From Microbacterium sp. (GTDB lineage: Bacteria; Actinomycetota; Actinomycetes; Actinomycetales; Microbacteriaceae), in NCBI GenBank assembly GCA_017306415.1, contig JAFKIL010000001.1, positions 372,001 through 436,000 on the forward strand: 64,000 nucleotides of DNA, read 5' to 3'. Shown piece after piece: positions 1,492-11,322 of the stretch. The notes beneath the pieces were generated by a model. The model did no database searches and had not been told where the DNA came from. It saw nothing but the letters and a program-made list of their open reading frames with translations. The translations under genes were made by a program, and so were the position numbers. Within the stretch, counting starts at the first letter, position 1; each line of letters opens with the position of its first letter.

Positions 1492-3561
1492 TCAGGCGTC
1501 GATGCGCTCGCGCGCGAGGCGATCGCTGGAGTCGACGATGAACTCGCGCCGCGGCGCGACGTCGTTGCCCATCAGCATCTCGAACACGTGCGCGGATGCC
1601 TCGGCATCCTGCACACGCACGCGACGCAGCGAGCGCCCCGCGCGATCCATCGTGGTCGTCGCGAGCTGTTCGGCATCCATCTCGCCGAGGCCCTTGTACC
1701 GCTGAACCGGTTCCTGCCAGCGCTTCCCCGACTTGGTGAGCTTCGTGAGGAGCGCATGGAGCTCCTGCTCGCTGTAGGTGTAGATCGTCTCGTTCGGCTT
1801 CGTACCGGGATTCATGACGATGACGCGGTGCAGCGGAGGGACGGCGGCGAAGACGCGTCCGTCCTCGATGAGCGGACGCATGTAGCGGAAGAACAGCGTC
1901 AGGAGGAGCGTCCGGATGTGCGCGCCGTCCACATCCGCATCGCTCATCAGGATGACCTTCCCGTAGCGCGCGCTGTCGAGGTCGAACGAGCGGCCAGAGC
2001 CTGCCCCGATCACCTGGATGATCGAGGCGCACTCCGCGTTGCTCAGCATGTCGCTGACGGACGCCTTCTGGACGTTCAGGATCTTGCCGCGGATCGGCAG
2101 CAGCGCCTGGTACTCGCTGTTGCGCGCGAGCTTGGCCGTGCCCAGGGCCGAATCGCCTTCGACGATGAACAGCTCCGAGTCGGCGACCTCGTTGGATCGG
2201 CAGTCGACCAGCTTGGCCGGCAGCGAGGACGACTCGAGGGCGTTCTTGCGCCGCTGGGTCTCCTTGTGGGTCCGAGCCGAGATCCGCGCCTTCATCTCGG
2301 CGACGACCTTGTCGAGCAGGAGCCCCGATTGGGCCTTGTCGTCTCGCTTGGTCGATGTGAGGCGGGCGGTCAGCTCCCGTGCGACCACGTTCGAGACGAT
2401 CTGCCGCACGGCCGGGGTGCCGAGCACTTCCTTCGTCTGGCCCTCGAACTGCGGTTCGGGGAGTCGCACCGTGAGCACGGCCGTCATCCCCGCGAGGATG
2501 TCATCCTTCTCGAGCTTGTCGTTTCCGACCTTCAGGCGGCGGGCGTTCTGCTCGACCTGGGCGCGGACCGCTTTGATCAGGCCCTGCTCGAAACCCTGCT
2601 GGTGGGTGCCGCCCTTCGGTGTCGCGATGATGTTCACGAACGAGCGCATCGTCGTGTCGTACCCGGTCCCCCAGCGGAGTGCGACATCGACCTCGCAACT
2701 GCGCTCCACCTCGGTCGCGACCATCGCCCCCGTCGGCTGGAGCACGGGGACCGTCTCGGTGAACGTCCCCGCCCCGGTGAGCCGCCAAGTGTCTGTGACA
2801 CCGGCATCCGGCGCGAGGTAGTCGGCGAACTCGGAGATGCCGCCGTCGAAGCGGAACACGGTCTCGTTGCGCTCTGCGCTCCGTTCGTCGAGGATGACGA
2901 TCTCGAGTCCCGGCACGAGGAACGCCGTCTGCCGGGCCCGCTGCTCCAGCTCCTCGAGGTTGAAGGCGGCGTCCTTGGTAAAGATGCTGCGGTCGGCCCA
3001 GTAGCGGATGCGCGTGCCGGTGACGGCCTTGGCCACTTTGCCGACGGCGCGCAGGACGCTCTCCCGCTCGAAGGGAGTGAATGCCGAGTCCGGCGCGCCA
3101 TTGGCGAAGAGGCCCGGCTCTCCGCGGTGGAACGACATCGCCCAGGTCTTGCCGCCGCGATCGACCTCGACATCGAGACGTTCGGAGAGCGCGTTCACGA
3201 CCGATGCCCCGACGCCGTGGAGGCCGCCGGACGCGGCGTAGGAGCCCCCGCCGAACTTGCCGCCGGCGTGCAGCTTGGTGAACACGACCTCCACACCGGA
3301 GAGCCCCGTGCGCGGCTCGATGTCGACGGGGATGCCCCGCGCGCGGTCCCTGACCTCCACACTCCCGTCGGAATGCAGGACGATCTCGATACGCGACCCG
3401 TGACCCGCCAGCGCCTCGTCGACGGAGTTGTCGATGATCTCCCAGAGGCAGTGCATGAGGCCACGGGAATCGGTCGAGCCGATGTACATGCCCGGTCGTT
3501 TGCGGACTGCCTCGAGCCCCTCGAGCACCTGGAGATGATGTGCGGAGTACTCGGAGGTCAC
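1492..3561 (-). CDS. parE: DNA topoisomerase IV (gyrase-type) subunit B
   Basis: This 689-residue type IIA topoisomerase ATPase subunit starts GHKL-like with R-K-R-P-G-M-Y-I-G and E-I-I-D-N-S-V-D-E-A. A transducer domain follows, then TOPRIM with E-G-D-S-A-L-G and D-A-D-V-D-G-A-H, and a C-terminal ParE/GyrB tail with Q-R-Y-K-G-L-G-E-M. GTG at 3561 is chosen because the protein then begins just before the conserved Y-S-A-H-H-L-Q-V-L-E-G-L-E-A-V-R. The open frame continues 75 codons upstream but that stretch has no family similarity. A -10-like TAGTCT lies 8 nt before the GTG, with GAGG in between. It is convergent with parC. Confidence 0.93.
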   Translation of the reverse strand: MTSEYSAHHLQVLEGLEAVRKRPGMYIGSTDSRGLMHCLWEIIDNSVDEALAGHGSRIEIVLHSDGSVEVRDRARGIPVDIEPRTGLSGVEVVFTKLHAGGKFGGGSYAASGGLHGVGASVVNALSERLDVEVDRGGKTWAMSFHRGEPGLFANGAPDSAFTPFERESVLRAVGKVAKAVTGTRIRYWADRSIFTKDAAFNLEELEQRARQTAFLVPGLEIVILDERSAERNETVFRFDGGISEFADYLAPDAGVTDTWRLTGAGTFTETVPVLQPTGAMVATEVERSCEVDVALRWGTGYDTTMRSFVNIIATPKGGTHQQGFEQGLIKAVRAQVEQNARRLKVGNDKLEKDDILAGMTAVLTVRLPEPQFEGQTKEVLGTPAVRQIVSNVVARELTARLTSTKRDDKAQSGLLLDKVVAEMKARISARTHKETQRRKNALESSSLPAKLVDCRSNEVADSELFIVEGDSALGTAKLARNSEYQALLPIRGKILNVQKASVSDMLSNAECASIIQVIGAGSGRSFDLDSARYGKVILMSDADVDGAHIRTLLLTLFFRYMRPLIEDGRVFAAVPPLHRVIVMNPGTKPNETIYTYSEQELHALLTKLTKSGKRWQEPVQRYKGLGEMDAEQLATTTMDRAGRSLRRVRVQDAEASAHVFEMLMGNDVAPRREFIVDSSDRLARERIDA

Positions 3562-3955: not shown

Positions 3956-3971
3956 CTCCCGGGTCAGTCCG
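3948..3971. terminator. bidirectional hairpin over two convergent stop codons
   Basis: There is a perfect 9-bp inverted repeat (3948-3956 / 3963-3971) with a 6-nt loop. It contains the TGA of the plus-strand small gene (3953-3955) and the TGA of the minus-strand racemase gene (3964-3966). With only 8 bp between the genes, one hairpin probably serves both transcripts. There is no U-tract, as is common for actinobacterial terminators. Confidence 0.5.
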
Positions 3972-5001
3972 AGTAGACGCGCGGGACGAGCGGGGAGAGT
4001 CGGAGCGCGATCTCCTCTCCGATCGTTCCCACCGCCTCGGCGAGCGTCGTCGCGGAGCCGGCGCCGTCGCCGGACGGCCCGTAGACGGTGATCTCCTCTC
4101 CCACGAGTGAGGCTCCCTCTCCTTCGATCGATCCCCCCGTCGTGTCCAGCGCGATCAAGCGCCGCGGTCCTGACGGTGATCCCAGCGTCACGCGTCCGCC
4201 GAGCGACGACGGGAGACCGTGCAGGGACGTGGCGTCGATCCGCACGACGGGATCGGTCTCGATGACGCTGGCGGAAAGCCGCGCGATCGGCCGGATGCCG
4301 AGTGCGGTCTCGTCGGGACCGCCGGCCGGGCGGATGCCGTACGCGAAGGCGCCGACCCGGACCGCGTCGTAGCGGAACTCGGGTCGGTCGAAAGCGGCCG
4401 CGCTCGCGGCGAGGTGACGCATGCTCGGACGCAGCCCCGCATCGCGCGCCACGCTCAACGCCGCGTCGAAGGCGTCCCGGGCGTCGTCGTCGTCGGCTTC
4501 CGACGCTTCGGCGATGTGGCTCCAGACGCCCACGACCTCGATGGCGCCATCGTGCTCGAGCTGCGCCGCCCGTGCGACGAAGGCGGGCCATTCCTCCGGA
4601 CGCACACCGTTCCGGTGCAGGCCGGTGTCGATCTTGAGGTGCACGCGAGCCGCGGCCGGGCGGCGCGCCGTCGCGATGTCCTCCAGGAGACCGACATCGC
4701 CGACGCCGATGTCGAGATCCTCATCGAGCGCGTCGCGCACCTCGTCGATCGACCCCACCATCCAGACGAAGATCCGCGCCTCGGGGCCGAGCGCCGCGCG
4801 CACGATGTACCCCGTCCTGACGTCGAACGCGCCGAACCACTTGACGCCCTCGGTCCACGCGCGCTGCACGACCGGCTCGAGGCCGTGGCCGTAGGCGTCG
4901 TCCTTCACCACCAGCATGTGAAGCGCGGGGGCGACGCGGCGGCGGATCTCGGCCAGGTTCGCGGCGAGAGCGTCGAGATCGACGTGGAGGACGACGCTCA
5001 C
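3964..5001 (-). CDS. alr: alanine racemase-like protein: intact PLP barrel, degenerate C-terminal domain
   Basis: This 345-residue fold-type III PLP protein begins with V-D-L-D-A-L-A-A-N. It has V-V-K-D-D-A-Y-G-H-G with the PLP lysine at K33, K-I-D-T-G-L-H-R-N-G, W-S-H-I-A and V-R-V-G-A-F-A-Y-G, so the N-terminal alanine-racemase barrel is complete. The C-terminal half ends in V-P-R-V-Y but lacks the G-Y-A-D-G segment carrying the catalytic Tyr and the G-R-x-x-M-D motif. Both missing segments are present in the gene directly upstream. The GTG start overlaps the upstream TGA by 4 bp (GTGA), implying translational coupling. It probably makes D-alanine for peptidoglycan only as a complex with that partner; this is inference from residues. 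Confidence 0.85.
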   Translation of the reverse strand: MSVVLHVDLDALAANLAEIRRRVAPALHMLVVKDDAYGHGLEPVVQRAWTEGVKWFGAFDVRTGYIVRAALGPEARIFVWMVGSIDEVRDALDEDLDIGVGDVGLLEDIATARRPAAARVHLKIDTGLHRNGVRPEEWPAFVARAAQLEHDGAIEVVGVWSHIAEASEADDDDARDAFDAALSVARDAGLRPSMRHLAASAAAFDRPEFRYDAVRVGAFAYGIRPAGGPDETALGIRPIARLSASVIETDPVVRIDATSLHGLPSSLGGRVTLGSPSGPRRLIALDTTGGSIEGEGASLVGEEITVYGPSGDGAGSATTLAEAVGTIGEEIALRLSPLVPRVYSD

Positions 5002-5684
5002 GGTACGTACTCCCGGCGTGCATGCAACCCGACGGCCGTCACGATCTCGAGTCCGGAGAGACCGCTCGCCGCACACCATTCGCGGACGTGGGGTTCCTCG
5101 TCCTCGCCGTCGCCGAAGAACACCACCTCGGCACCGCGCTCGGGATGCGCATCCCCGATGTCGACGACGCAGACGTCCATGGCGACGCGACCGATCACGG
5201 AGCATCTGCGCTGGGCGATCGAGACGGAGACCCGGTTCCCGAGTCCGCGGAGGACACCCTGCGCGTATCCCCCGGTCACGAGGGCGATGTGCGTGTCCTC
5301 GGGTGCGCGGTAGGTCAGGCCGTAGGACACCCCCTCGTCGGCCAGCAGGACCTTGGTGGACAGAACACGCCCCACGAGCGACATCGCGGGCCGTGATCGG
5401 GAGTCGCCCCCGGGGAGGCCGAGCAGGGTGTTCACGTGCTCGGCCGGGAGGCCGTCGTCCCGCGCGGGGACGGGCGACGAGGGTCGGCGATCGGTGATCA
5501 CGTCATCGAGCGCCCTGCGCACCTCGGCCACGCCGTGGCCCCATGCATCAGCAGCGAAATCGCCGAGGAAGGGGCCGTCGATGAGCCGTGCATTGGCCCT
5601 GAGCGCCGACCGGGAGACACGCGCGACGGGTCCGCTTCCGACGCGCACCCGGGCGGAGTCGTCGCCCAGGTCCGCCGCAGTCAC
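4998..5684 (-). CDS. alanine racemase C-terminal-domain protein lacking the PLP lysine
   Basis: This 228-residue protein opens with a remnant of the Alr N-terminus (S-x-A-L-R-A-N-A-R-L, then F-A-A-D-A-W-G-H-G). The PLP lysine position of V-K-A-N-A-Y-G-H-G is alanine here (A44) and Y is W. Most of the barrel is missing, replaced by a short linker (about residues 52-98). The C-terminal domain is well conserved: V-S-Y-G-L-T-Y, G-G-Y-A-Q-G with the catalytic-type Tyr at Y140, and G-R-V-A-M-D near 165-170. It cannot racemise alone but could donate the Tyr across a dimer interface to the adjacent barrel protein. GTG at 5684 follows a -10-like TAGTCT by 7 nt. Confidence 0.8.
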   Translation of the reverse strand: MTAADLGDDSARVRVGSGPVARVSRSALRANARLIDGPFLGDFAADAWGHGVAEVRRALDDVITDRRPSSPVPARDDGLPAEHVNTLLGLPGGDSRSRPAMSLVGRVLSTKVLLADEGVSYGLTYRAPEDTHIALVTGGYAQGVLRGLGNRVSVSIAQRRCSVIGRVAMDVCVVDIGDAHPERGAEVVFFGDGEDEEPHVREWCAASGLSGLEIVTAVGLHARREYVP

Positions 5685-5729: not shown

Positions 5730-6752
5730 ATGCCTCAACAGGGCCTCGGCATCGCCCCTCGCCTTCGCTATCTCGCCGGTCGCGCGCGTCGGATCGACGT
5801 CGGCTCCGTGGTCGAGCGTGCCAGGGAGGCATCCGTCCAGCATGGCAAGTGGACACCCGCTGTGATCGCCGACATGCTCTGGCAGGCGGGGTTCCGCAAC
5901 GTCGGATTCCAGGACTACATCGACTACGACTTCGCGATCCTGAATCGCGCGGAGCGGGCCACCTACATGACCCATCCGGTGTCCAACCAGCTCTCCCAGA
6001 AGTACGACCAGCCGGAGTACCGCCACATCTTCCAGGACAAGGTGGAGTTCGACGGCGTCTTCGACGAGTTCCTCCGCCGGGACTGGATGGTGGTCGAGGA
6101 GGACAACGCGGCCGAGGTGCGCGCTTTCGCGGAGAGCCACGGAACGATCGTGACCAAGGAGCCGGTCGGGCAGGCGGGCACCGGCGTCCACCGCTACCAC
6201 GCCGGCGAGATCGACGACTGGACCGCGTTCCACCGCGGCCTGCGCGAGCGCGGCGAGCTGCTGATCGAGGCGGTGATCGTGCAGCATCCCGATCTCGCCG
6301 CGGTGTGCCCCGGCACGGTCAACACCACGCGCGTGACAGCCTTCTTCGACGGAGAGCGAACGCACATCCTGGCGATGGCGCAGAAGTTCGGTCGAGGCGC
6401 CGTGAGCGACCAGATGACGTTCGGGGGCTTCTACACGATGCTCGACGAGGACGGACATGCGATGGGTGCCGGCTACGACTCGCACGGGCACGTGCACGAG
6501 GTCCACCCCGACTCGGGGTTCCGGATCGCCGACTTCCAGCTGCCGATGATCGAAGGCGTGAAGGACTTCGTCGATCGCGTCGCCCGCGTCGTACCGCAGG
6601 TCCAGTACGTGGGCTGGGACATCGTCGTGACACCGGACGGGCCCGTGCTCGTCGAGGGCAACTGGGGCGCGGGTGTCTACGAGAACAAGCCGAGCGTCAC
6701 CGGCATCCGCACCGGCCACAAGCCCCGCTATCGCGAGGCCATCGGGTTCTGA
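5730..6752 (+). CDS. sugar-transfer-associated ATP-grasp protein
   Basis: This 340-residue protein has an ATP-grasp-like arrangement: a central V-T-K-E-P-V-G-Q-A-G-T-G-V phosphate-binding segment near residue 150, L-L-I-E-A-V-I-V-Q-H around 175, N-T-T-R-V-T-A, and a C-terminal metal/ATP segment G-W-D-I-V-V-T-P-D-G-P-V-L-V-E-G-N-W. This pattern fits the ATP-grasp family linked to sugar transfer and cell-surface biosynthesis (ATPgrasp_ST). The substrate is unknown. It is divergent from the racemase pair, with 45 bp between starts, which suggests but does not prove a shared cell-envelope role. ATG at 5730 is preceded by GGAG. It is followed 3 bp later by the helicase gene. Confidence 0.75.
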   Translation: MPQQGLGIAPRLRYLAGRARRIDVGSVVERAREASVQHGKWTPAVIADMLWQAGFRNVGFQDYIDYDFAILNRAERATYMTHPVSNQLSQKYDQPEYRHIFQDKVEFDGVFDEFLRRDWMVVEEDNAAEVRAFAESHGTIVTKEPVGQAGTGVHRYHAGEIDDWTAFHRGLRERGELLIEAVIVQHPDLAAVCPGTVNTTRVTAFFDGERTHILAMAQKFGRGAVSDQMTFGGFYTMLDEDGHAMGAGYDSHGHVHEVHPDSGFRIADFQLPMIEGVKDFVDRVARVVPQVQYVGWDIVVTPDGPVLVEGNWGAGVYENKPSVTGIRTGHKPRYREAIGF

Positions 6753-6755
6753 TCG

Positions 6756-9251
6756 GTGGCCGGACGGCTGGATGTCGCTGCGCACCGCGGATCGGACCCG
6801 GATGCGGTCTATGCGGCGTTCGGCAGCTGGGTCGAGTCCACGGGCATCAGCCTCTATCCCGCACAGGATGAGGCTCTCATCGAGATCGTGTCGGGCCAGA
6901 ACGTCATCCTGTCCACGCCCACCGGCACCGGGAAGTCGCTGGTCGCCGTCGGCGCGCATTTCGCGGCGCTGGCGGCGGGCGTCCGCAGCTACTACACCGC
7001 GCCGATCAAAGCCTTGGTGAGCGAGAAGTTCTTCGCGCTCGTCGACATCTTCGGTGCGGAGAACGTCGGGATGGTGACCGGGGATGCCGCGGTGAACCCC
7101 GACGCTCCCATCGTGTGCTGCACCGCGGAGATCCTCGCGAACCTCGCCCTGCGCCACGGTGAGGATGCGGACGTCGGGCAGGTCGTGATGGACGAGTTCC
7201 ACTTCTACGCCGACCCGGAGCGCGGATGGGCGTGGCAGGTGCCGCTGCTCATGCTCGTCCGCGCGCAGTTCGTGCTCATGTCCGCCACTCTCGGCGACGT
7301 CACCGTCCTCGCCGCCGACCTCACCCGGCGTACCGGGAGGGAGACCGCGCGGGTCACCGGAGTCGAGCGCCCCGTTCCGCTGCACTACTTCTACGAGACG
7401 ACCCCGATCCACGAGACGATCGACGATCTGCTGAGCACCGGTCAAGCGCCGATCTACGTCGTCCACTTCTCTCAGGCCGCCGCGATGGAGCGGGCCCAGG
7501 CCCTGTCCAGCACGAGGGTCGCGACCCGGGAGCAGCGAGATGAGATCGCGGATCTGATCGGCGGATTCCGCTTCACGACCGCGTTCGGGCGCACCCTGTC
7601 TCGATTCCTCCGCGCCGGCATCGGCGTCCATCACGCAGGAATGCTCCCGAAGTACCGACGACTCGTCGAGCAGCTCGCGCAGCGGGGACTCCTCCGCGTC
7701 ATCTGCGGCACGGACACATTGGGCGTCGGCATCAACGTCCCGATCCGGACGGTTCTGCTCACGGCGCTCACCAAGTACGACGGCTCTCGCATGCGGCAGC
7801 TGAATGCGCGGGAATTCCACCAGATCGCCGGACGGGCGGGCCGGGCCGGCTTCGACACCGCCGGAACGGTCGTGGTGCAGGCACCCGAGCATGAGACGGA
7901 GAATCTGGCGGCGATCCGCAAGGCCGGCGACGATCCGAAGAAGAAGCGCAAGATCATCCGCAAGAAGGCGCCGGACGGATTCGTCTCCTGGGGCGAACCC
8001 TCTTTCCGGAAGCTGATCGATGCCGAGCCGGAGACACTCACCTCCCACATGCAGGTGACCAGCTCCATGGTCCTCGGCGTGATCGCCCGCGGTGGCGACG
8101 TCTTCTCGACGATGCGCGCGCTCGTCTTCGACAACCACGAGCCGCGCCGACGGCAGCGCGAGCTGGCGCTGCGGGCGATCGGCATCTACCGCACGCTGCG
8201 CGAATCGGGGGTCGTCACGCAGACGGCCGACGGCGTGATCCGTCTCACCGTGGATCTGCCACCGGACTTCGCCCTGAACCAGCCGCTGTCGCCGTTCGCC
8301 CTCGCCGCGTTCGATCTGCTCGATCGCGCCTCGCCCGTCTTCCCACTCGACATGATCTCGATCGTGGAGGCCACGCTCGACGGTCCACGCGCTGTCTTGA
8401 GCCAACAGGAGTTCGTCGCGCGAGGCGAGGCTGTCGCCGCGATGAAGGCCGAGGGCATCGACTATGACGAGCGCATGGAGCTCCTCGAGTCGGTCACCTA
8501 TCCCCGACCGCTGGAGGAGCTGCTCACGGCGGCGTTCGAGACGTTCAGCGCGGCGCAGCCGTGGATCCGGGACTTCGCACTGCACCCGAAATCGGTGGTG
8601 CGGGACATGTACGAGCGGGCGATGTCGTTCGGTGAGTACATCGCGTTCTACAAGATCGCCAGGTCAGAGGGTGTGGTCTTGCGCTATCTCTCGGACGCGT
8701 ATCGCGCGGCAACGCAGACGATCCCCGGTGAGCTCAGGTCGGACGAGCTGCGTGACCTGATCGAGTGGCTCGGCGAACTCGTCCGCCAAGTCGACTCCAG
8801 CCTCCTCGACGAATGGGAGGAACTCGTCTCCGGCCATCTTCCTCCCCACGGAGGGGACGAACCGATCGTTCCGCCCGCGCCCCATCGCGTCACGTCGAAT
8901 GCGCGGGCGTTCCGTGTCCTCGTCCGCAACGAGCTCTTCCGCCGGGTGCAGCTGGCCGCGCGGCGGGATATCGAGGCGCTTGCGGATCTGGACTCAGTGT
9001 TCGGTCACGACGCCTGGCGCGACGCGCTGGACGCCTACTTCGCCGAGCACGACGAGATCGGCATGGGTCCCGACGCCCGGGGGCCGGAGATGCTCCTGAT
9101 CTCACCGGACGACCGCACCTGGACGGTCCGTCAGATCTTCGACGACCCCGCCGGCGACCACGACTGGGGCATCTCGGCCACCGTCGACCTCGCGGCCTCC
9201 GACGAAGCGGGTGCTGCAGTCGTCGTCGTGACGGCCGTGAACCGACTCTGA
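6756..9251 (+). CDS. Ski2-like DEAD/DEAH-box helicase with DUF3516 C-terminus
   Basis: This 831-residue superfamily 2 helicase has motif I S-T-P-T-G-T-G-K-S at 53-61, motif II D-E-F-H at 146-149, motif III M-S-A-T-L near 176 and motif VI Q-I-A-G-R-A-G-R-A-G near 355. The C-terminal ~300 residues match the DUF3516 region typical of actinobacterial Ski2/Mtr4-like helicases. It likely unwinds RNA or structured nucleic acid in processing or decay; the substrate is not known. The GTG start lies 3 bp after the ATP-grasp stop, so the two genes are probably cotranscribed. Its antisense strand contains a long random open frame that I reject. Confidence 0.9.
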   Translation: MAGRLDVAAHRGSDPDAVYAAFGSWVESTGISLYPAQDEALIEIVSGQNVILSTPTGTGKSLVAVGAHFAALAAGVRSYYTAPIKALVSEKFFALVDIFGAENVGMVTGDAAVNPDAPIVCCTAEILANLALRHGEDADVGQVVMDEFHFYADPERGWAWQVPLLMLVRAQFVLMSATLGDVTVLAADLTRRTGRETARVTGVERPVPLHYFYETTPIHETIDDLLSTGQAPIYVVHFSQAAAMERAQALSSTRVATREQRDEIADLIGGFRFTTAFGRTLSRFLRAGIGVHHAGMLPKYRRLVEQLAQRGLLRVICGTDTLGVGINVPIRTVLLTALTKYDGSRMRQLNAREFHQIAGRAGRAGFDTAGTVVVQAPEHETENLAAIRKAGDDPKKKRKIIRKKAPDGFVSWGEPSFRKLIDAEPETLTSHMQVTSSMVLGVIARGGDVFSTMRALVFDNHEPRRRQRELALRAIGIYRTLRESGVVTQTADGVIRLTVDLPPDFALNQPLSPFALAAFDLLDRASPVFPLDMISIVEATLDGPRAVLSQQEFVARGEAVAAMKAEGIDYDERMELLESVTYPRPLEELLTAAFETFSAAQPWIRDFALHPKSVVRDMYERAMSFGEYIAFYKIARSEGVVLRYLSDAYRAATQTIPGELRSDELRDLIEWLGELVRQVDSSLLDEWEELVSGHLPPHGGDEPIVPPAPHRVTSNARAFRVLVRNELFRRVQLAARRDIEALADLDSVFGHDAWRDALDAYFAEHDEIGMGPDARGPEMLLISPDDRTWTVRQIFDDPAGDHDWGISATVDLAASDEAGAAVVVVTAVNRL

Positions 9252-9262
9252 CGTAGCGTGAG

Positions 9263-9961
9263 TCAGGCGGGGCGAACCACGCCGAGAGGCGTGGATTCGT
9301 GCCCCTGGCCGAGCGGGTTGTCCTTCAGGATCGCCACCAGGCGCCGCTCCCCCGCGCGGTCGAGCGTCGAGCCGAGGATGTTGCCGCCGAGGTCGTTGAT
9401 GTCGACGACGGCGACCTCGGCGTCTCCGCCGAGCAGCGACTTCAGGTGCGCAGCCACCTCGCGAGGCCGCTCGGGCCCCAGAACGACCGCCTTGTTGTAG
9501 GGCGGAATCGTGCCGCTGGTGGGGCCGTCGATGGCGCGCGCCTTGTCGCCCGCGACGCGGTAGAAGTCGCCCTTGCGTCCGAACGCCTTCGTCACGGCGG
9601 AGACCGCGGCGGCGAAGAGGATGCGCAGAGTCCCGCACTCGCGCAGGGCCATCTCCATCGTCTCGGGCATGCCGAGTCCGATGCCGTACGGAGTCCGGGT
9701 CACGTACTTCGACAGGAAGAACGCGAGCTTCCTCGGCCGGATCTCGTCGACCGGGAACGATCGCCCCTGCGTGATCGCGACGATCTTCTCCGTCACGAAA
9801 AGGGTGTCTCCCGGAGCGACGACGCCCGCTGCGTACTCGCGGATGAACGGATCGAGCTCGTCACCCGGCATCACGACCCGCGTGCGGATCGGGATGCGGG
9901 CGAACGTCGTCCCGTCGACGGCGACGGTCAGCGCCTTGCCGGCGTTGGCCTCGGCGGTCAC
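9263..9961 (-). CDS. CofE-like (coenzyme F420-0:L-glutamate ligase family) protein
   Basis: This 232-residue protein resembles the F420 gamma-glutamyl ligase fold: [17 protein letters not shown] near residues 51-67, [10 protein letters not shown], and [10 protein letters not shown] near 190. The last differs from the usual D-T-F-G-R-P-W-R-x-G motif of CofE. No cofC, cofD or fbiC neighbours are present, so a direct F420 role is uncertain and another amide-forming reaction is possible. Its GTG overlaps the sigma factor TGA by 4 bp (GTGA), so it is translated from the primary sigma factor mRNA. Confidence 0.7.
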
Positions 9962-11322
9962 TCGAGGTAGTCCCGGAGCGACTGCGAGCGACTCGGGTGA
10001 CGAAGCTTCGCCATCGTCTTCGACTCGATCTGACGGATCCGCTCACGGGTCACACCGAACGTGTCGCCGATCTGGTCGAGCGTCTTGGGCTGACCGTCGC
10101 CGAGACCGAAACGCATCCGGATCACGCCGGCCTCGCGCTCGCTGAGCGAGTCCAGAAGCGACTCCAGCTGGCGCTGGAGCATCGTGAATCCGACGGCGTC
10201 GGCGGGAACGACGGCCTCGGTGTCCTCGATCAGGTCGCCGAACTCACTGTCGCCGTCCTCGCCGAGCGGCGTGTGCAGCGAGATGGGCTCACGGCCGTAC
10301 TTCTGCACCTCGACGACCTTCTCGGGCGTCATGTCGAGCTCGCGGCTCAGCTCTTCGGGCGTGGGCTCTCGACCCAGGTCCTGCAACATCTGCCGCTGGA
10401 CGCGGGCGAGCTTGTTGATGACCTCGACCATGTGGACCGGGATGCGGATCGTCCGCGCCTGGTCCGCCATCGCACGCGTGATCGCCTGGCGAATCCACCA
10501 CGTCGCGTAGGTGGAGAACTTGAAGCCCTTGGTGTAGTCGAACTTCTCGACGGCACGGATGAGTCCGAGGTTTCCTTCCTGGATCAGATCCAGGAACTGC
10601 ATGCCACGACCCGTGTACCGCTTTGCGAGCGACACGACCAGTCGGAGGTTCGCGCCCAGCAGGTGAGACTTCGCTCGCTGACCGTCGCGCGCGACCCACT
10701 GGAGGTCGAGGCCGAGCTGCGTCGCCTTCTCCGCCGCGGACATGTGCGACAGCTTCTCCTCGGCGAACAGGCCGGCCTCGATGCGCATCGCGAGTTCGAC
10801 CTCTTCGGCCGCGTTCAGAAGCGGGACCTTGCCGATCTGCTTCAGGTAGTCCTTCACCGGGTCTGCTGTTGCGCCCGTGATCTGTGCGGAGTAGACCGGG
10901 ACGTCATCCTCGTCGTTCGACGAGATGACGATGGCGCCGGTGGGCAGAGGCTCCGTGAACGCCGGCTTGGCCTCCTCCTCGTCGTCCTCTTCATCGTCGG
11001 AAGACTCCGGATCGGCCGGCGCCGCCGCCTTCTTCTTCGCGGGCGTCGCCGCGTCCGTGTCGTCGTCGCTGTCGTCGGCATCCACATCGACGTCGTCGAT
11101 CTCGACATCCGCGACGTCGAGGTCGTCGTCCAGCTCGATGTCGTCGTCTTCGGTGACCGCGCCCTTCGCGTCCGCCTTGGGCGCCGCCTTCTTGGTCGCG
11201 GTCTTCGCCGCGGCGGGCTTGCGCGCCGGGCGCTTCGCCGTCGCGGCCTCGACCACTTCGGCGTCGTCTACGACGGTGTCCTTCGTGGTGGAGCGGGTGG
11301 TGGTCTTCGTGCCTGCGGTCAC
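9958..11322 (-). CDS. sigA: primary RNA polymerase sigma factor (SigA/HrdB/RpoD)
   Basis: This is a 454-residue group 1 sigma-70 factor. Residues 1-125 are a low-complexity Lys/Ala then Asp/Glu-rich extension. The conserved core starts at [11 protein letters not shown] (region 1.2), with region 2 including the -10-recognition helix [13 protein letters not shown]. Region 3 and region 4.2, with T-R-E-R-I-R-Q-I-E and the terminal R-D-Y-L-E, are intact. It directs housekeeping transcription. The GTG start follows a weak purine-rich site. A 244-bp gap upstream holds its promoter region. It is coupled to the CofE-like gene downstream. Confidence 0.97.

Follow-up and report, generated by a model that had tools for sequence, protein, structure and literature searches.

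Two adjacent genes in a genome of Microbacterium sp. each encode a protein resembling only part of alanine racemase (Alr), which raises the question of whether the two products form a single enzyme and, if so, what that enzyme makes. Alr is a fold type III pyridoxal phosphate (PLP) racemase, and in its dimer catalytic residues come from two subunits (PMC3485190). We analyzed the pair in a 64,000-nucleotide stretch of DNA, hereafter the window, and in related genomes.

Architecture of the gene pair

Gene X (positions 4998-5684, minus strand, 228 aa) lies upstream of gene Y (3964-5001, minus strand, 345 aa); the pair spans 3964-5684, and the GTG that starts Y and the TGA that ends X overlap within the sequence GTGA (4998-5001, minus strand). 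X consists of a lysine-less remnant of the alanine racemase barrel and an intact Ala_racemase_C domain, its sole Pfam match (PF00842, 110.6 bits for a cut-off of 25). Y contains a complete Ala_racemase_N barrel (PF01168, 176.7 bits) and a degenerate C domain that scored 19.6 bits, below the cut-off of 25. Domain homology to Alr therefore holds for both proteins, for Y through PF01168 and for X through PF00842, and the best-matching solved structures for both are alanine racemases. The 168-bit cut-off of the alr family model TIGR00492 (NCBIfam) was missed by both (X, 100.5 bits; Y, 136.6 bits). The original prediction, made from the window sequence, located both reading frames and named their active-site residues correctly. 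It also described the genes as two halves, a description that fits the reciprocal residue loss documented below but not the architecture of Y, which, judging by its domain composition, is not a half gene: the skeleton of the C domain is retained, and its motifs are lost.

A single normal alr broken by a frameshift was ruled out by gene order, with X (C domain) preceding Y (N domain); the remnants of the missing half in each gene and the presence of a separate normal alr speak further against it.

Distribution of active-site residues between X and Y

In the alignment with Alr, Y of the window carries the PLP lysine as Lys33 (4903-4905, minus strand), equivalent to Lys39 of the Bacillus/Geobacillus stearothermophilus enzyme, and also retains Tyr37, Lys123, Arg130, His162, Ser200, and Arg215. 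The PLP-lysine position in X is occupied by Ala44 (5553-5555, minus strand, a place derived from the residue number). X retains the catalytic tyrosine (Tyr265′) as Tyr140 (5265-5267, minus strand), along with Arg166 and Met169 of the GRVAMD motif (Arg166-Met169 at 5178-5189, minus strand, derived from the residue numbers). Neither window protein combines the PLP lysine and the catalytic tyrosine on one polypeptide.

The same division of residues was found in an alignment covering 94 loci, with 92 rows each for X and Y (88 distinct sequences of each protein); both genes were represented at 90 of the loci. The PLP lysine is present in none of the 92 X rows and in 91 of the 92 Y rows, the exception being the Y of locus L140, the N-terminal part of which is unaligned. 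The catalytic tyrosine is found in 90 of 92 X rows and in 6 of 92 Y rows, being absent from the other 86. X rows further keep the methionine (92/92) and the arginine (91/92) of the GRxxMD motif, the latter present in none of the 92 Y rows, and the equivalents of His166, Arg136, and Arg219 are found in all 92 Y rows. Counting distinct sequences only, the lysine is absent from all 88 X proteins and the tyrosine is kept in 86; among the 88 Y proteins, 87 keep the lysine and 6 have the tyrosine. At the level of aligned residues, the reciprocal loss is not a product of chance but a family-wide pattern, as had been proposed for the window pair.

Some loci depart from this pattern. The catalytic tyrosine is replaced by phenylalanine in X of L186, L037, and L188, which counts against a split active site and is left unexplained by such a model; the six Y rows that retain a tyrosine at the catalytic position count against it as well. 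In Microbacterium schleiferi FXH-192 (L186:4392-6043) and its relative L188, where X has this phenylalanine, Y has a tyrosine at or near the matching place. At the M. elymi locus (L140:17412-18996), X was matched in two segments that overlap, and Y is unaligned at its start, indicating a broken gene or an assembly error.

Co-occurrence, coupling, and selection

The best 30 loci of a Y search in 199 genomes of the family comprise the window and 29 relatives, and all 29 relatives have X immediately upstream of Y. Y is present in 123 of 149 congeneric genomes and absent from 26, the two groups being separated by a clear score gap. A search of these 26 Y-less genomes, blunt for a diverged X, detected X in none (0/26), in keeping with the strict co-occurrence suggested originally. 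The matches were only C domains of longer alr-type proteins, with one match in each of 24 genomes, and the second match in G210 and G237 was a full-length alr-like protein. As a control for the X search, the X part of a fusion protein in G278 scored 68.7 bits, below the 90.7 bits of the alr of the same genome. This natural X-Y fusion is a single 531-aa protein (L082:7946-9541 in G278; L155 is the same contig). The only X without Y among 80 named Microbacterium loci (L142) is cut by a contig end. The start codon of the Y frame overlaps the stop codon of X in 66 of 74 pairs (pairs less than 80% identical in Y), the same class of overlap as the GTGA from which translational coupling had been predicted.

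Some loci lacking the pair belong to genomes that carry it elsewhere. Of the 28 named loci without a full pair, 27 genomes were searched (L102 was left out): 5 contain a full Y elsewhere, 2 contain only broken Y fragments in split assemblies (L110 and L142), and 20 contain none. By whole-genome search, Y was found elsewhere in M. enclense, M. schleiferi, L107, L119, and L144, all initially scored as pair-less at the locus. The record of L107 is titled Planococcus sp. APC 4015, a name that looks wrong given its Microbacterium-like locus. Occurrence of the pair outside the family was rejected on Y scores: among 198 genomes of the order, of which 15 belong to the family, Y scored at least 428 bits in 8 genomes, all from the window's genus, and at most 383 elsewhere, a score argument that a diverged Y could escape.

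For eight hand-picked close pairs, dN/dS was 0.15-0.27 in Y; in X it was 0.17-0.24 over the C domain and 0.17-0.66 over the N-terminal remnant. X and Y are both under purifying selection. This selection and the conservation of both genes ruled out an artifact or a pair of pseudogenes. Taken together, the reciprocal residues, the position of X upstream of Y, the co-occurrence, the overlap, and the fusion support a single two-chain enzyme.

The alanine-specificity position

The specificity of Alr for alanine rests on two tyrosines, 265′ and 354, and lysine-preferred racemases have threonine or alanine at position 354 (PMC3485190). At the place of Tyr354, Y of the window has Glu329 (4015-4017, minus strand, from the alignment), and an acidic residue (Glu or Asp) occupies this position in all 91 Y rows that have a residue there, the remaining row (L163) being short. 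Replacement of the specificity tyrosine likens Y to the lysine-preferred racemases Lyr and Bar; these differ in the replacing residue (Thr or Ala, as opposed to Glu or Asp) and in being dimers of one protein (PMC3485190). In an 85-row tree, the acid is present in 29 of 29 Y rows and in 7 of 7 downstream copies of tandem alr genes (see below), tyrosine in all 43 rows of alr and upstream copies (L182_C and L218_O in this set being one gene), and alanine, valine, or leucine in six X rows. The acid maps to a single change on this tree. Glu or Asp in place of the specificity tyrosine points to a substrate other than alanine.

The genome that contains the window also encodes an ordinary full-length alr (G000:C4:603105-604175), so that the X/Y pair is not needed for D-alanine supply and the original interpretation has to be amended on this point. 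From these sequence features, the pair is probably not an alanine racemase.

Genomic neighborhood and associated ligases

Next to the pair, the window encodes a divergently oriented ATP-grasp ligase (ATPgrasp_ST, PF14397; 340 aa; 5730-6752, plus strand), whose subtype is associated with the pair, and a F420_ligase/CofE-like protein, F11 (9263-9961, minus strand), in the position of the MurT/GatD-like genes of other species. The region is flanked on one side by a GyrB/ParE-type topoisomerase gene (1492-3561, minus strand) and on the other by a sigma-70 factor gene (9958-11322, minus strand). Between the ATP-grasp gene and F11 lies a DEAD-box helicase gene with a DUF3516 domain (6756-9251), which is absent from L085. 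The GyrB/ParE gene is near the pair in 28 of 29 relatives (L010-L038) and in 16 of 16 further chosen loci of other genera (L190-L206 without L194); at loci with GyrB/ParE, DUF7455 and the sigma factor are mostly beside the pair as well. Searches for phage or defense functions gave no match in PADLOC at E 0.01 or in PHROGs at E 0.001, and such a role was rejected.

Among the 80 named Microbacterium loci, 52 have the pair: 36 of these encode F11 with one ATP-grasp ligase, 5 encode F11 with two, 10 encode MurT/GatD-like proteins and no ATP-grasp ligase, and 1 encodes F11 only. The loci without the pair comprise 13 with F11 and one ATP-grasp ligase, 10 with F11 and two, 3 with MurT/GatD-like genes, and 2 with F11 alone. 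F11 and the MurT/GatD-like genes are mutually exclusive at these 80 loci; L197, from another genus, gave weak matches to both. Seven of 11 pair-bearing genomes have no ATP-grasp homolog; six of these seven were examined, and all six carry MurT/GatD-like genes instead.

We built a tree of 53 hand-chosen ATP-grasp sequences, from 35 of the 80 named loci and five other loci, in which each subtype is found either with or without the pair. One clade (support 91) unites 16 ligases of pair loci with those of M. schleiferi, L117, and L144; L117 and L144 are pair-less at the locus, and their genomes carry the pair elsewhere. At pair-less loci, seven single ligases group together (support 100), and the two tandem ligases each have a clade to themselves (support 99). 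The ligases of six loci with two ATP-grasp genes and the pair fall into two clades of their own (98 and 99), of which one is the sister group of a pair-less tandem clade, and the ligase of L203 stands alone. The subtypes also track the species tree, and part of their match with the pair is kinship. In M. schleiferi FXH-192, the ATP-grasp gene, X, and Y are found together in one direction at another place, so that the racemase pair and an ATP-grasp gene are adjacent both there and in the window. Two different tandem ATP-grasp genes occur at 10 of the 28 pair-less named loci (including L069, L102, L120, L123, and L130); these are possibly the two ligases of an L-lysine bridge.

The MurT/GatD-like genes that adjoin the pair in other species encode homologs of MurT/GatD lipid II isoglutaminyl synthase but differ from it in the missing glutaminase cysteine of GatD, absent from 30 of 30 aligned rows, duplicates included. 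Loss of this cysteine suggests that the MurT/GatD-like pair probably joins something other than ammonia. The position of the cysteine is occupied by glycine, alanine, or threonine in the GatD-like proteins of L079-L084 and other loci. MurT_C had no match in the genome of the window.

The racemase of the racD-aslA system belongs to a family other than that of X and Y. This Lactococcus lactis operon nevertheless provides a precedent for a racemase gene next to that of an ATP-grasp wall ligase, as at the X/Y locus: it encodes a D-amino acid racemase and an ATP-grasp ligase, through which a D-amino acid enters the peptidoglycan bridge, although there, unlike in the proposed X/Y system, the amino acid is D-aspartate and is attached to the lysine of the stem (PMC4155827).

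Relation to cell-wall chemistry

Among the types of group-B peptidoglycan, B2 types have a D-diamino acid in the interpeptide bridge and B1 types an L-diamino acid. The bridge of this group attaches to D-glutamate, and we assume the same attachment for a wall assembled with X and Y. Group-B peptidoglycan is reported for the family in PMC10978784.

The pair can be compared with the wall diamino acid given for eight species in published descriptions, which are species-level data and do not always concern the sequenced strain: six species agree with an association between the pair and ornithine and two disagree. The pair is present in species of the ornithine type, namely, M. testaceum, M. galbinum, M. 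hydrocarbonoxydans (via its cluster V), and M. schleiferi, for which the value is that of the type strain and not of the sequenced FXH-192; it is absent from the lysine-type M. arborescens (at the locus only) and M. saccharophilum. Conversely, M. radiodurans (L123) is reported to contain D-ornithine and has no pair, and M. enclense (L138 and L185) is reported to contain L-lysine and has it. In these published accounts, both species are the odd ones of their clades, and their genes follow the clade. For these two species, either the chemistry or the link between pair and chemistry is wrong. The locus of M. enclense is divided: the pair and its ligase adjoin ParE on another contig. Y is also absent from M. 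lacticum (of the lysine wall type), M. hominis, M. flavum, and M. paulum.

On a ParE tree of 73 loci, presence of the pair changes about four times, and well-supported branches force one of these changes; the correlation with chemistry thus rests on few independent events. Among the open-licence matches listed, the literature gave no gene assignment for the D-diamino acid or the cross-bridge of group-B peptidoglycan, and the matches listed for racemase heterodimers and Microbacteriaceae wall genes included nothing on point.

Proposed function and alternative explanations

X and Y together probably constitute a heteromeric racemase that would supply an unusual D-amino acid, not alanine, for the cell wall. 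More specifically, we consider it reasonably likely that they form an obligate heteromeric fold type III PLP racemase with one active site, which in Microbacterium would racemize L-ornithine and so furnish the D-ornithine of the interpeptide bridge in group-B2 peptidoglycan. We infer the physical complex, its catalysis, its substrate, and the pathway from the features observed in the sequences: the reciprocal loss, co-occurrence, coupling, fusion, acid at position 354, and neighborhood. The Y barrel would hold PLP on Lys33, and the C domain of X would contribute Tyr140, Arg166, and Met169 to the site of Y; the opposite site, composed of the X remnant and the Y C domain, would be dead. Glu329 of Y replaces the tyrosine that restricts Alr to alanine, and its charge would favor a basic side chain. 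The bridge would then be joined to the stem peptide by the neighboring ligases, ATP-grasp and CofE-like here and MurT/GatD-like elsewhere. The difference from Alr, which has the same two domains and catalytic residues, is that Alr carries both halves on one polypeptide, whereas X and Y carry a half per gene and Y has the acidic residue at 354. If this proposal is correct, the pair is a clear example in nature of how reciprocal half-site loss can convert a homodimeric enzyme into an obligate hetero-enzyme, and the locus supplies candidate genes for the D-diamino acid and the cross-bridge of group-B peptidoglycan, which is a character used in the taxonomy of the family.

Three other explanations were weighed. 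X and Y might form a heteromer that racemizes an amino acid other than the wall diamino acid or acts in another pathway, their linkage to the ligases reflecting shared ancestry of the locus. The two species in conflict with the reported diamino acid and the few independent changes on the ParE tree are compatible with this, yet it accounts poorly for the relocated ATP-grasp-X-Y group of M. schleiferi and for a ligase subtype that matches possession of the pair also in genomes whose pair is away from the locus (L117 and L144), and we regard it as unlikely. It is slightly more doubtful that Y is an enzyme by itself, a fold type III PLP protein with other one-base chemistry, and X a non-catalytic partner or regulator. 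Y does keep the full barrel and the PLP contacts checked, and X of L186, L037, and L188 has phenylalanine for the catalytic tyrosine; a regulator, however, would have no need of the cross-subunit catalytic motifs that X keeps (Tyr in 90/92 rows, Met in 92/92, Arg in 91/92), and in the eight close pairs constraint is as strong on the C domain of X as on Y. Least probable of the three, by a small margin, is a second, heteromeric alanine racemase with the same split site and D-alanine as its product. In its favor, the closest solved relatives are alanine racemases and the PLP-contact residues are conserved; against it stand the replacement of Tyr354 by Glu or Asp in every one of the 91 Y rows that cover this position, the ordinary alr of the window's genome, and the association of the pair with subtypes of cell-wall ligases.

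Evolution of the pair

The origin of the pair had been predicted to be a tandem duplication followed by reciprocal degeneration. Reciprocal loss was borne out, but the tree gives no support for a recent duplication: the six full-length X rows are monophyletic and adjoin Microbacteriaceae alr, and Y forms a separate clade. By this phylogeny, X and Y are old paralogs. Nine genomes (L237-L245) encode two alr genes in tandem, both with the PLP lysine and the GRxAM motif, and seven of the nine were placed on the tree. The seven downstream copies, with the acid at position 354, nest within the Y clade at two places. A single clade of degenerate Y rows was rejected (AU p = 0.0035, in a test set up after inspection of the tree and with some branches long), and two losses are needed. 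The presence of intact tandem relatives inside the Y clade implies that the Y half degenerated at least twice; these intact tandem forms survive in related genera. The specificity residue thus probably changed first, with half-site loss following at least twice.

The enzyme proposed above can tentatively be extended beyond Microbacterium, as a one-site heteromeric racemase that would have evolved at least twice in parallel after the change from Tyr354 to an acid and would make the D-diamino acid of group-B peptidoglycan; its locus, with ATP-grasp and CofE-like ligases or with MurT/GatD lacking the glutaminase, would be the cross-bridge cluster of Microbacteriaceae. If this wider reading is true, the wall type could be read from the genome. 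Among the tandem genes, the downstream copy of L244 had no matched Tyr motif, and phenylalanine takes the tyrosine position in the upstream copies of L237 and L238.
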